Shown: in pieces, positions 2,893 through 47,915 of the stretch
Numbering within the stretch: the first letter of the stretch is position 1
Layout: every line of letters begins with the position of its first letter
Source of the DNA: Pedobacter yonginensis
GTDB lineage: Bacteria > Bacteroidota > Bacteroidia > Sphingobacteriales > Sphingobacteriaceae
Length of the DNA stretch: 64,000 bases
Direction of reading: 5' to 3'
Assembly (NCBI RefSeq): GCF_003173595.1
Contig: NZ_QGNZ01000001.1
Location: forward strand, 1,054,001 to 1,118,000
The notes under the pieces: model-generated
Seen by the model: the letters and a program-made list of their open reading frames with translations, nothing else
The model's database searches: none
Told to the model about the DNA's origin: nothing
Program-made: the position numbers and the translations under genes

Positions 2893-2999
2893 TTCCAAGA
2901 TTTCCCTCAAATTTCAAACGATAAAACGACCAATCAAGACAGATTTAGGTCACAACATTTATTATCGCACCAACCCTTATACCCAAAAACTAAAATTTA

Positions 3000-3249
3000 T
3001 CTCCTTAAATCTGCGTCCCTTATCTGTGCCCATCTGCGGGAAAAAAAATCCATCCCCTAGATTCAATCCGTGCTATCTCCTTAAATCTGCGTCCCTTATC
3101 TGCGTCCATCTGCGGGGAAAAAAATAAAAAATCCTTCCCCAAGTTCAATTCTTCGTGTCTCCTTAAATCTGCGTCCCTTATCTGCGTCCATCTGCGGGGA
3201 AAAAAGAAAAAATCCTTCCTATCTCCTCAAATCTCCCACCCTTATCTGC
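3000..3249. repeat. Degenerate tandem repeat, units of about 50 bp with CTGCG core
   Basis: Three long copies start at 3000, 3076 and 3158, each reading close to TCTCCTTAAATCTGCGTCCC followed by TTATCTGCGTCCATCTGCGG and an A-rich tail; a fourth, truncated copy starts at 3222. Spacing is 76, 82 and 64 bases, so the conserved blocks are separated by variable filler. The array fills the gap between ruvB and the 3' end of the broken GxxExxY gene. No coding potential is visible in it. Confidence 0.85.
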
Positions 3250-3260
3250 AAAAAACAACT

Positions 3261-3662
3261 TCAAAAATCTTTCAAACCATAAGCTTTCCTATAAATACTA
3301 TCTGCAATGTTATCCGTATTAAAATTAACCAACAAACCGAGTTTAATCCCCGATAACTTTAAATAGGTAAGTAATTGCTTATGATGAACTTTCAGCATCA
3401 TTTCAACAGATTTTAACTCAATAATTACTTTAACTTCTACTACCAAATCCAATCTATAACCAACATCAACTCAAATATTTTCGTAAATCATCGGTAAGGC
3501 AACCTGACTTCGAACCTGTAATCCAGATTTCTCCAATTCATATTTCAAAGCTGCCTCGTAAGCCGATTCTAAAAGTCCAGGACCAAGCGTGTTGTACACT
3601 CTAAAAATACTCCCTCTTATAATGTATATAATTTCATTTTCTGTCATGATTAAACATACCAA
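3261..3662 (-). pseudogene. GxxExxY family protein, interrupted by an in-frame stop
   Basis: The two halves of a GxxExxY protein lie in one frame, separated only by a TGA at 3473-3471. The N-terminal half (start 3662, or the better ATG at 3647, MTENEIIY) contains the name-giving motif 'GPGLLESAYEAAL'; the C-terminal half reads VDVGYRLDLVVEVKVIIELK and then 'HKQLLTYLKLSGIKLGLLVNFN', the expected PD-(D/E)xK-like core. Intact, it would be about 133 residues, the normal length. The family's function is unknown; the fold suggests a nuclease. The single nonsense codon indicates recent inactivation or a sequencing error, and there is no sign of selenocysteine insertion. Confidence 0.85.
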
Positions 3663-3777
3663 ATAAAACTATTTATTCCTAAAAGGAGTATGGTAATTTA
3701 TATTTTTTAGCGGTAAAGTGATCCGAAAACAAACATTGAAGCATCTGTTCTGTTCCTAATTGTAAACCAAACATTTT

Positions 3778-5286
3778 ATGAATATCGAATTACGAAAATT
3801 AACCCTCGAAGATTATAACGATTTAAAGGAATCCATGCTGCAAGCCTATGATAGTATGGGCGGATCAATTTGGCCAAAATCAAGCATCGCTAAACTTTTA
3901 ACGATCTTTCCAGAAGGGCAACTCTGTATTGCAGTTGATGATAAAGTAGTAGCCTGTTCGTTGGCCATAATTGTAGAGTATGATGAATATGGAGATCGGC
4001 ATACCTATAAACTGATTACCGGCGATTACTCCTTTTCTACCCACGATCCTAATGGCGACACACTTTACGGAATCGAAATTTTTGTCCATCCAGAGTTTAG
4101 GGGCTTGCGATTGGGTAGAAGGTTATATGAAGCCCGAAAAGAACTTTGCGAAAGCTTAAACTTAAAAAGTATCATTGCCGGCGGACGTATTCCAGGCTAC
4201 CATGCCCATGCAAAGGAATTAAGTCCGAGACAATATATAGACAAAGTAAAATCCAAAGAAATTTACGATCCAACCTTAACCTTTCAAATTTCAAATGACT
4301 TCCACGTTAGAAAGGTATTAAAAAACTATTTACCTGGCGATCGTGAGTCGAAAGAATATGCAACTTTGATTGAATGGAATAACATTTACTATCAAGGAAT
4401 AGATGCATCGGCACGTTCGGCCATGACCATTCGCTTAGGTTTGGTACAGTGGGAAATGCGCTTATTCCCCGATATGGATGTTTTTTATGAGCAGGTGGAA
4501 TTTTTTGTCGATGCATTGAGCGGTTACAAATCAGATTTTATCATGTTTCCAGAGCTGTTCAATACGCCGCTCCTTCAGCCCTACAATCACTTACCAGAAG
4601 TTGAGGCCATGCGGAAATTGGCAGAAAAAACGAAGGAAATTGTGGATAGGATGCACGAGTATGCCCTCAGTTATAACGTAAATATCATCACCGGAAGCAT
4701 GCCTTTGCTGGAAGATGGTAAATTATACAATGCTACATACTTATGCCATAGAACTGGAAAAATTGATGAGTATAGAAAAATCCACATCACACCCAACGAG
4801 CAAAAGTATTACGGAATGGTGGGCGGCGACAAGGTACAGGTATTTGATACCGATTGTGGCAAAGTGGGCATTTTGATCTGTTACGATGTAGAATTTCCAG
4901 AGTTGAGTCGTATTTATGCAGATCAAGGGATGCAAATATTATTTGTTCCATTTTTAACTGATACCCAAAATGGCTATACACGTGTGCGCCACTGCGCCCA
5001 AGCCAGAGCCATAGAAAATGAATGTTATGTAGCTATTGCAGGCTGCGTGGGTAACCTCCCGAAGGTAAACAACATGGATATACAGTTTGCACAATCTGCG
5101 GTGTTTACTCCTTCAGATTTTGCCTTTCCTACCAATGCCGTGAAGGCCGAAGCAACCCCAAATACGGAGATGGTTCTTGTGGTAGATGTGGATTTGCATT
5201 TATTGGATGAATTGCATCACTATGGCACTGTAAAGGTTTTAAAAGACAGAAGAACAGATTTGTATCAAACAAAGCTTTTAAAATAA
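3778..5286 (+). CDS. GNAT acetyltransferase fused to carbon-nitrogen hydrolase (nitrilase superfamily)
   Basis: A 502-residue two-domain protein. Residues 1 to about 150 are a GNAT acetyltransferase, with acetyl-CoA loop 'VHPEFRGLRLGRRLYEARKE'. Residues about 220-495 are a carbon-nitrogen hydrolase with the full catalytic triad: Glu259 in 'MFPELFN', Lys334 in 'EYRKIHITPNE' and Cys368 in 'ILICYDVEFPE'. The arrangement is an established fusion in Bacteroidota and Proteobacteria; the hydrolase part resembles amidases such as omega-amidase or N-carbamoylputrescine amidase, but the substrate is not known. It stands alone between the broken GxxExxY gene and a terminator hairpin. Confidence 0.9.
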   Translation: MNIELRKLTLEDYNDLKESMLQAYDSMGGSIWPKSSIAKLLTIFPEGQLCIAVDDKVVACSLAIIVEYDEYGDRHTYKLITGDYSFSTHDPNGDTLYGIEIFVHPEFRGLRLGRRLYEARKELCESLNLKSIIAGGRIPGYHAHAKELSPRQYIDKVKSKEIYDPTLTFQISNDFHVRKVLKNYLPGDRESKEYATLIEWNNIYYQGIDASARSAMTIRLGLVQWEMRLFPDMDVFYEQVEFFVDALSGYKSDFIMFPELFNTPLLQPYNHLPEVEAMRKLAEKTKEIVDRMHEYALSYNVNIITGSMPLLEDGKLYNATYLCHRTGKIDEYRKIHITPNEQKYYGMVGGDKVQVFDTDCGKVGILICYDVEFPELSRIYADQGMQILFVPFLTDTQNGYTRVRHCAQARAIENECYVAIAGCVGNLPKVNNMDIQFAQSAVFTPSDFAFPTNAVKAEATPNTEMVLVVDVDLHLLDELHHYGTVKVLKDRRTDLYQTKLLK

Positions 5287-5693: not shown

Positions 5694-6629
5694 GTGTACA
5701 ACAATTCTGCAAAATATAGCCAATTAATTAAAGATGAAGCCATTCGCCTAGGCTTTTTATCTTGTGGAATTTCGAAAGCCGAGTTTTTAGAAGAAGAAGC
5801 CCCCCGCTTAGAGAAATGGCTGAAAAATAACCACCATGGAGAAATGAAATACATGGAAAATTACTTCGATAAACGATTAGACCCACGGTTATTGGTTGAT
5901 GATGCGAAGTCTGTAATCTCCTTATCTTTAAACTATTATACAAAAGAAAACCAAACAGATGTTCATGCACCAAAAATTTCCAAATACGCTTATGGGCAGG
6001 ATTATCACACGGTAATCAAAGAAAAGCTAAAATTCCTCTTATCCTTTATTGAAGAAAATATCGGTGAAGTATCTGGCAGAGCTTTCGTTGATTCGGCTCC
6101 GGTTTTGGATCGGGCTTGGGCCAAAAAATCTGGAATCGGTTGGGTTGGGAAAAACTCGAATCTGATTAGCAAAACGGATGGTTCTTTCTTCTTTTTGGCA
6201 GAATTAATTATTGATTTGGAGCTGGACTACGATTATCCTTTCCAAACCGACCACTGTGGTACGTGTACGCGCTGCTTGGATGCCTGCCCTACTGACGCCA
6301 TCATTGCTCCACAAGTTGTAGATGCATCAAAGTGTATTTCTTACCTCACCATCGAGTTGAAAGAAGAAATCCCAACAGAGTTTAAAGATAAAATGGCCAA
6401 TTGGATGTTTGGCTGCGATATTTGTCAGGACGTTTGCCCTTGGAACCGTTTTTCTAAAGCACACAATGAAGAAGCTTTTAATCCGCAAAAAGGCTTGCTG
6501 GATTTAAATGAGAAAGACCTCATCGAGCTAACGGATGAGGTCTTCACCAAAGTCTTTAAAGGTTCTGCGGTTAAGCGCACCAAGTTTAAAGGTTTAAAAA
6601 GAAATATCGATTTCTTAAAATCTTCTTAA
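5694..6629 (+). CDS. queG: Epoxyqueuosine reductase QueG
   Basis: Cobalamin- and iron-sulfur-dependent reductase that converts epoxyqueuosine to queuosine at the tRNA wobble position 34, the last step of the pathway. The 311 residues include the cobalamin-site stretch '[20 protein letters not shown]' and two [4Fe-4S] motifs, '[16 protein letters not shown]' and '[11 protein letters not shown]'. The start is a GTG; the family N-terminus aligns well there and no ATG lies upstream in frame. QueA, the enzyme that makes its substrate, is encoded at 41.25 kb. It is convergent with the M1 peptidase gene, 10 bases between stops. Confidence 0.95.
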
Positions 6630-47769: not shown

Positions 47770-47915
47770 ATCTATTCACTTATAAGCAGCATCTTAACTC
47801 AAATCTAATATCTCTTATCTAATACCTTTTAACTAATATCTCTTATCTAATATCTCGTATCTCAAATCTATTATCTCGTATCTCAAATCTATTATCTCAA
47901 ATCTCATAATCTCTA
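47770..47915. repeat. Degenerate 10-bp repeat array (TATCT / AAATCT)
   Basis: After the trpS end, the sequence consists of irregular repeats such as TATCTCTTATCTAATA and TATCTCGTATCTCAAATC, with a period near ten bases, running up to six bases before the kinase ATG at 47922. Low complexity, no coding potential. Confidence 0.8.

Follow-up and report, generated by a model that had tools for sequence, protein, structure and literature searches.

A GxxExxY gene with a single in-frame stop codon, lying beside a tandem array of ATCTGYG units, raises the question of whether the protein and the repeat belong together and, if so, what kind of genetic unit they form. The pair lies in the window analyzed here, a stretch of 64,000 nucleotides from the genome of Pedobacter yonginensis (genome G000), and we have followed it into related genomes, into other GxxExxY loci and into other occurrences of the repeat.

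The GxxExxY gene and its array in the window

The gene (TIGR04256, PF13366) occupies positions 3261–3647 on the minus strand, 128 codons and a stop, and the minus-strand frame from 3647 to 3261 encodes a full-length GxxExxY protein apart from a single internal TGA at codon 59 (3471–3473, read as 3473–3471). Each half of the frame matches TIGR04256 (5.6e-15 and 7.3e-20 in profile searches) as well as PF13366 and exceeds the curated cut-offs of both, in agreement with the initial annotation, which had described a gene intact except for one TGA. The whole frame scores 138 bits with the GxxExxY profile against a cut-off of 35, and it retains the PD-(D/E)XK residues D67, E77 and K79 together with G22-E27-Y30. 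TIGR04256 and PF13366 were the only matches in the profile searches with this gene, and no DDE domain was found. The genome holds four GxxExxY genes.

Tandem Repeats Finder (TRF) places an array with an 82-bp period and 2.8 copies at 2998–3219 on the plus strand (score 316), each copy consisting of three ATCTGYG units and a spacer. The three repeat blocks, all on the plus strand, lie at 3009–3038 (units at 3009, 3022 and 3032), 3085–3114 (units at 3085, 3098 and 3108) and 3167–3196 (units at 3167, 3180 and 3190), with unit spacings of 13 and then 10 bp in all three copies; a further, degraded copy follows at 3211–3249 on the same strand. The array comes to within 41 bp of the gene's stop codon and thus abuts its 3' end as had been described at the outset, with a repeat unit of about 82 bp instead of the 50 bp then proposed, since the TRF period is 82 bp. 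On the far flank of the gene (3648–3777) we see no repeat, so that the element is one-sided, and because the upstream side lacks a repeat and the gene carries the TGA, the window copy is probably dead or inactive. We note that a separate degenerate tandem array with 21-, 14- and 7-bp periods is present at 47798–47914 of the window and is, as far as seen, unrelated to these observations.

The neighbors at the insertion site, both named by inspection and both on the plus strand, are ruvB on the left (1870–2892) and an acetyltransferase-nitrilase-like gene on the right (3778–5286). Every one of the 61 family genomes in the sample has some match to the nitrilase-like protein, and ruvB lies beside the nitrilase-like gene in eight of the 30 loci fetched, the window's own included; among these eight, a GxxExxY gene lies between the two only in G000 and in a sibling genome, G080. 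The G080 orthologue occupies the corresponding position (G080:C7:206519-206860) and is listed as lacking a stop; with the stop codon left out, it has 76% protein identity to the window gene over 125 codons. The G080 array has a unit spacing like the 13/10 pattern of the window and a different spacer sequence. The site is empty in a sibling genome of the same genus, G138, where neither gene nor array is found and 168 bp separate ruvB from the nitrilase-like gene. Gene and array are thus present at this locus in some genomes and absent in others, and because the empty region of G138 aligns with the filled loci only near the downstream gene, the locus yields no exact junction.

A search of the P. 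yonginensis genome with one degenerate pattern, ATCTGCGNNNATCTGCGGG (up to 2 mismatches), gave 28 matches compared to none for the reversed control, and these make up five ATCTGCG-type arrays and one stray match. The arrays are direct repeats with a short core common to all five and a spacer that differs at each locus, the spacers within the window array being copies of one another. Of the five, the array in the window alone has a GxxExxY gene next to it, and no GxxExxY remnant was found near the other four in the roughly 4–5 kb fetched on each side. Another locus of this genome (L003, C11:163911-167255) has a GxxExxY gene with long CACGGAA/TTCCGTG arrays on both sides, one of which has an 81-bp period and eight copies.

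An AlphaFold model of the G080 orthologue, built with a 95-row alignment, has a pLDDT of 95 and a pTM of 0.88. Its best structural match is SSO0001 (4ic1; Z 9.7, rmsd 3.3 over 99 residues), which we take to be a Cas4, followed by a restriction-endonuclease-like protein (Z 8.7); Holliday-junction resolvases match at Z 5.6–6.9, a range in which a common arrangement suffices. The invariant alignment columns are G22, E27, Y30, D67, K79, N108 and F109, and the nearly invariant ones include E77, Q91 and Y95, giving a pattern D...ExK...QxxxY of which the QxxxY part is presumably comparable to that of Cas4/RecB-type nucleases. A sequence search of the PDB gave no clear relative (one match at E 0.56), and searches of PADLOC and PHROGs yielded weak matches, Cas4-like, endonuclease or unnamed, for part of the 95 members. 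From the model we confidently predict a PD-(D/E)XK-like nuclease fold with its catalytic residues for GxxExxY.

Repeats at GxxExxY genes and their relation to protein clade

Inverted repeats around GxxExxY genes were sought by aligning the 150 bp upstream of each gene to the reverse complement of the 150 bp downstream, with a score cut of 18 that was fixed before the first result and left unchanged in later sets. In the first set of 104 loci, three were dropped for short flanks, and with orthologous loci of related genomes entered separately, 58 of the remaining 101 scored at least 18, compared to 0/101 at a distance of 500 bp, 3/101 in cross-locus pairings and 13/483 for ORFs other than GxxExxY. 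The fraction was 44/68 in the sample of the window's phylum, taken to be Bacteroidota (70 fetched; 24/68 below the cut), 14/29 in genomes picked for the ATCTGCG repeat (30 fetched) and 0/4 for the GxxExxY genes of the window's own genome; in the F clade of the protein it was 9/24 (30 fetched) versus 0/24 in the control. Each inverted arm strings together a few units about 10 bp long; CRCNRAK is frequent on the upstream side, its complement on the downstream side. Locus-specific inverted repeats of such units enclose many of the GxxExxY genes. Of 150 GxxExxY loci, 62 have a TRF array at a distance of up to 300 bp and 14 have one at 600–900 bp, the 150 including at least two loci entered twice (L255/L312 and L315/L393). 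No Rfam family matched in 16 GxxExxY loci or in the window stretch. The suggestion that had accompanied the discovery of this locus, that of an unrecognised repeat-gene system, therefore gains support from both the arrays (62/150 versus 14/150) and the inverted repeats (58/101 versus 13/483 other ORFs), and in a broader form than first conceived.

Adjacency of repeat and gene, compared with expectation, is enriched when it is approached from the gene: TCTGYG unit pairs occur at 15 of 34 GxxExxY loci (four from the window's genome and 30 from its phylum) versus 0.4 expected from Markov shuffles, many of them just outside the gene, and the inverted-repeat score is at least 18 at 22/28 loci of the Verrucomicrobia phylum sample (29 fetched), with 1/27 in the control and 1/28 cross-locus. 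Plain ATCTGCG adjacency approached from the repeat was tried as well and is weak (3/80, then 6/118, among the matches listed). A scan of a species-genome collection with ATCTGCGTNNATCTGCGGG gave at least 118 stretches, from many phyla by their record titles, and among the matches listed, six of 118 stretches with a strict ATCTGCG pair have a GxxExxY gene or fragment, four of them within about 150 bp, and 112 do not. Three are among the first 80 listed (L110 and L170, tight, and L101, about 2.4 kb off) and three among the further 38: L180, L175 with GxxExxY fragments about 0.1 kb from the repeat, and L210 with a gene or fragment about 2.5 kb off. The link thus runs from gene to repeat and for the most part not from repeat to gene (6/118 listed stretches; 1/5 arrays of the window's genome), and the signal emerged on starting at the gene and admitting related units, not plain ATCTGCG. 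The statement in the initial annotation that ATCTGCG repeats often sit beside GxxExxY genes elsewhere is upheld as to gene-side enrichment, with ATCTGCG being only one among several repeat types.

Several individual loci deserve mention in their own right. L046 (G162) has 47-bp ATCTGTG arrays in the same orientation on either side of its GxxExxY gene, at 647–1432 (about 17 copies) and 1995–2188 (about 4 copies). In L180 (4555–4985), on a Phycisphaerae contig and thus in another phylum, ATCTGCG-type pairs flank a GxxExxY gene on either side at a distance of no more than about 50 bp. The Runella defluvii contig L141 carries near-identical palindromes at 2378–2492 and 6359–6473, in opposite orientations, separated by about 4 kb and with similar flanks. 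With the longest open stretch to either side of the gene taken as the neighbor ORF, F-clade loci (L393–L422) are often found in type I restriction-modification loci, their 55 neighbor ORFs including HsdS 12 times, N6_Mtase four times and HSDR_N four times. For other GxxExxY genes, 54 of 60 neighbor ORFs were used, three orthologous loci having been dropped, and among the 25 of 99 Pfam families listed for these 54 there are neither HsdS, N6_Mtase or HSDR_N nor cas genes.

Of 50 genomes with a strict ATCTGCG pair that were searched whole, from the 66 first listed, 42 contain GxxExxY and eight do not; the corresponding figures are 101/198 for the window's phylum and 46/96 for the Verrucomicrobia sample, the groups being unmatched. 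Where repeat blocks lie within 400 bp of each other in the 80 stretches listed, 31 pairs are inverted as they are around the gene (R-F) and nine have the opposite polarity (F-R).

The type of repeat tends to follow protein clade, as judged from a protein tree of 123 rows, 106 of which carry repeat labels assigned by regular expression and used in shuffles; the labels of the F clade and of the window gene were set by hand and excluded. Repeat type changes 30 times on the tree versus 46–60 times in 300 shuffles, and 12 times versus 26–33 when two similar types are merged, relatedness not being allowed for in either comparison. For the 68 rows not picked for the repeat the tie is weak (22 changes versus 21–34, mean 28.9, in shuffles), with seven changes versus 8–10 after merging, and types A and B alone give 18 changes versus 18–29. 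The window gene falls in a starred clade of nine rows, eight of which are labelled CRCDGAT, a pattern that includes CGCAGAT, and five of which come from genomes picked for that repeat. ATCTGCG is one of several types.

Within a single genome, G246, GxxExxY paralogues have different repeat types. AACCACATAGATACATAG (up to 2 mismatches) is present in 41 copies in G198, 42 in G246 and five in G207, genomes that hold genes flanked by AACCACATAGATACATAG, and in no copies in G000 and one in G080, with none for the reversed control. The P. yonginensis gene L001 belongs to the same starred tree set as CACATAG-flanked genes, yet the CACATAG repeat has no copies in G000. For the F repeat, AATCCTGATTCAGACA, we tallied matches with at most one mismatch across 149 genomes from a single order, which were also searched with an F-clade protein; the reversed control gave four matches over all 149. 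All 11 genomes with at least five copies have the F clade, compared to 47/149 overall (p 1.3e-6, with the F-clade limit of E < 1e-28 set after the protein search results were seen, and with one of the 11, G246, being the center of the sample and chosen for having the repeat). With at least three copies the F clade is present in 14/18, four genomes with three or four copies lacking it. Genomes with the F clade average 3.60 copies, those whose GxxExxY genes are all of other clades 0.39 and those without GxxExxY 0.31, G246 and G418 together accounting for 73 of the copies in the F-clade group. The strict F motif is found at 9/26 F-clade loci, and the others end in TGTCTGAAC-like forms.

Whole units, empty sites and gene-less forms

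Comparison of genomes reveals the gene and its ends as a unit. G198 has two copies 16.5 kb apart that have in common a 467-bp block, 83.5% identical, consisting of the gene and its inverted ends; the block ends at about AACCACATAG...CTATGTGGTT, and the sequences outside are unrelated. G246 has three copies with 82–88% protein identity, their common blocks of 379–453 bp being 74–78% identical at the DNA level. In the eight genomes of genus g47, a complete GxxExxY gene is present in four (G054, G100, G163 and G026, with filled sites of 472–565 bp), a remnant in one and an empty site in three (G175, G069 and G065), where the marker-flanked genes are 50 bp apart with no repeat between them. The remnant, a 382-bp stretch with both ends in G038, resembles a decayed copy and gave no profile match at E < 0.01.

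Gene-less palindromes with the same ends measure 67–213 bp in G198, where five of 126 bp have a common interior, and similar gene-less elements of 102–129 bp are found in G246. A 272-bp form (L347, G198:C219:65250-66250) carries the 3' half of a GxxExxY gene between intact ends; in this truncated gene an ATG is present and the D...ELK segment is preserved. At L326 (G207:C33:290600-294000), three GxxExxY 3' fragments spaced at about 385 bp lie beside a longer copy. No target-site duplication was recognised by eye at the G198 and G246 duplicates and gene-less elements, whose ends are not fixed to the base. The protein is maintained, as dN/dS is 0.02–0.13 in nine GxxExxY gene pairs; synonymous sites are saturated between the window gene and its sibling and in one G246 pair, which hence give no ratio. 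With a single query, GxxExxY was found in eight of 72,556 plasmid records and in none of 50,697 phages.

Inverted ends, a tie to clade, duplication of whole units, empty and decayed sites and gene-less miniatures are thus documented by genome comparison. From these we consider it likely that gene and repeats are the remains of a minimal mobile element with a lone PD-(D/E)XK nuclease and miniature, non-autonomous derivatives, and we infer that GxxExxY acts on or spreads the repeat, as the initial annotation had supposed. An autonomous copy would span about 450–500 bp, with one GxxExxY nuclease of about 125 residues between inverted ends built from about three units, each about 10 bp long and with a sequence that tends to be peculiar to the protein clade. 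The protein may bind at both ends of the element, where the units follow an approximately helical spacing, or on the arms of an extruded palindrome, and its D67/E77-x-K79 site may nick or cut at the repeat ends, after which host replication or repair would finish copying the unit into a new intergenic site. Gene-less palindromes would be moved in trans, and slippage or unequal exchange may give rise to tandem arrays like that of the window, with the spacer homogenized separately at each locus. The window copy is a decaying example of such a mobile-element-like unit. Several observations count against this reading: the failure to recognise a target-site duplication, the one-sided window copy and the four genes of its genome that all fall under the inverted-repeat cut, the 112 listed stretches and the eight genomes that have the ATCTGCG pair and no GxxExxY gene, the four genomes with three or four F repeats and no F clade, the strict F motif at only 9/26 F-clade loci, the L001 exception, the weak tie to clade in rows not picked for a repeat and for types A and B alone, and the scarcity of the family in plasmid and phage records.

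The main rival is a homing-like route, in which the palindromes spread first by other means and GxxExxY cuts gene-less palindromes, repair through arm homology then copying the gene in. It would accommodate the position of the gene between arms whose polarity is that of the more frequent class of gene-less pairs (31 R-F, nine F-R), the ends that the gene-less palindromes and the truncated-gene form have in common, and the failure to recognise a target-site duplication. However, homing needs a palindrome at the target first, so that the three empty sites in genus g47 with no repeat between the genes count against it, as does the 467-bp duplication that carries arms and gene together, and we regard this route as unlikely.

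Alternatively, another enzyme could mobilize the repeats while GxxExxY, as a host-side or passenger nuclease, processes or controls them or hitch-hikes, for example by removing cruciforms. The eight of 50 repeat-bearing genomes that lack GxxExxY, the 24 of 68 genes of the window's phylum that fall under the inverted-repeat cut and the presence of Holliday-junction resolvases among the structural matches (Z 5.6–6.9) are in keeping with this; but such a passenger would not predict that paralogues in the same genome differ in repeat type and that the type tends to go with clade, or that copy number tracks the cognate clade (3.60 versus 0.39 and 0.31, two genomes holding 73 copies), and we find the explanation quite improbable. 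That the repeats have nothing to do with the protein, being ordinary terminators, mRNA-stabilizing hairpins or products of local tandem duplication, as their mostly intergenic, often palindromic nature and the arrays found elsewhere (14/150 loci at 600–900 bp) might suggest, is hardly credible given that the arms pair across the GxxExxY gene (compared to 13/483 other ORFs), that no Rfam family matches in 16 loci or the window stretch and that arms and gene are duplicated together.

A larger claim can be built on the minimal mobile element, and we put it forward as a conjecture that may well prove wrong: GxxExxY might found a separate class of prokaryotic mobile element, in which a Cas4/RecB-like nuclease moves a unit of about 450 bp and miniature palindromes without DDE, HUH or tyrosine- or serine-recombinase chemistry, reading clade-specific, helically spaced ends of about 10 bp, and so explaining many extragenic palindromes and arrays across phyla.

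Relation to known systems

GxxExxY genes are present in about half of the genomes sampled in the window's phylum and the Verrucomicrobia, and published mentions, in the portions of the sources available, come from an RT classifier paper and an algal virus genome paper. In the literature searched, which leaves most subscription papers and all preprints outside, we found no functional account of GxxExxY and no description of the repeat element. Through the tie to cognate repeats, GxxExxY acquires a testable function, and a class of extragenic palindromes and arrays would find an explanation. Should the nuclease move the unit, one more enzyme fold would join the short list of those that drive DNA mobility, and the clade-matched pairs of protein and repeat offer a natural set for learning how small nucleases read DNA.

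Cas4 and RecB resemble GxxExxY in the best structural match (SSO0001), in weak Cas4 profile matches and in the D...ExK...QxxxY pattern. Unlike Cas4, the GxxExxY alignment has no invariant cysteine, and in contrast to a CRISPR Cas4 the window gene has ruvB and a nitrilase-like gene as neighbors, not cas genes, and the spacers of its array are not unique.

Insertion sequences with DDE transposases and their MITEs combine a short coding element with inverted ends, truncated and miniature derivatives and empty sites. GxxExxY elements resemble them in terminal inverted repeats common to miniature derivatives, in a truncated form and in empty sites; they differ in that the GxxExxY matches lack a DDE domain and no target-site duplication was recognised by eye, and in their rarity in the plasmid collection and absence from the phage collection (one query). 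Among PD-(D/E)XK proteins, the YhgA-like family (PF04754), whose members are described in the accessible part of one report (PMC1913061) as belonging to this superfamily and being annotated as putative transposases, shares the fold class with GxxExxY and belongs to another Pfam family, the comparison being by annotation.

The closest parallel is with REPIN-RAYT systems, in which, according to the part of the source available (PMC3116915), palindromic repeats lie beside a gene, distinct transposase genes lie by distinct repeat groups, and gene-less inverted doublets and tandem clusters occur. Likewise, GxxExxY genes are flanked by inverted repeats of their own type in part of the loci, the window copy on one side only, and GxxExxY-type repeats form dispersed gene-less inverted doublets in other genomes, the arrays of the window's genome being direct. 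GxxExxY differs in being PD-(D/E)XK-like (PF13366) and not a Y1 tyrosine transposase, and in arms that are runs of units of about 10 bp. By analogy, the best reading is that the GxxExxY element would work like a REPIN-RAYT system, with an unrelated enzyme.
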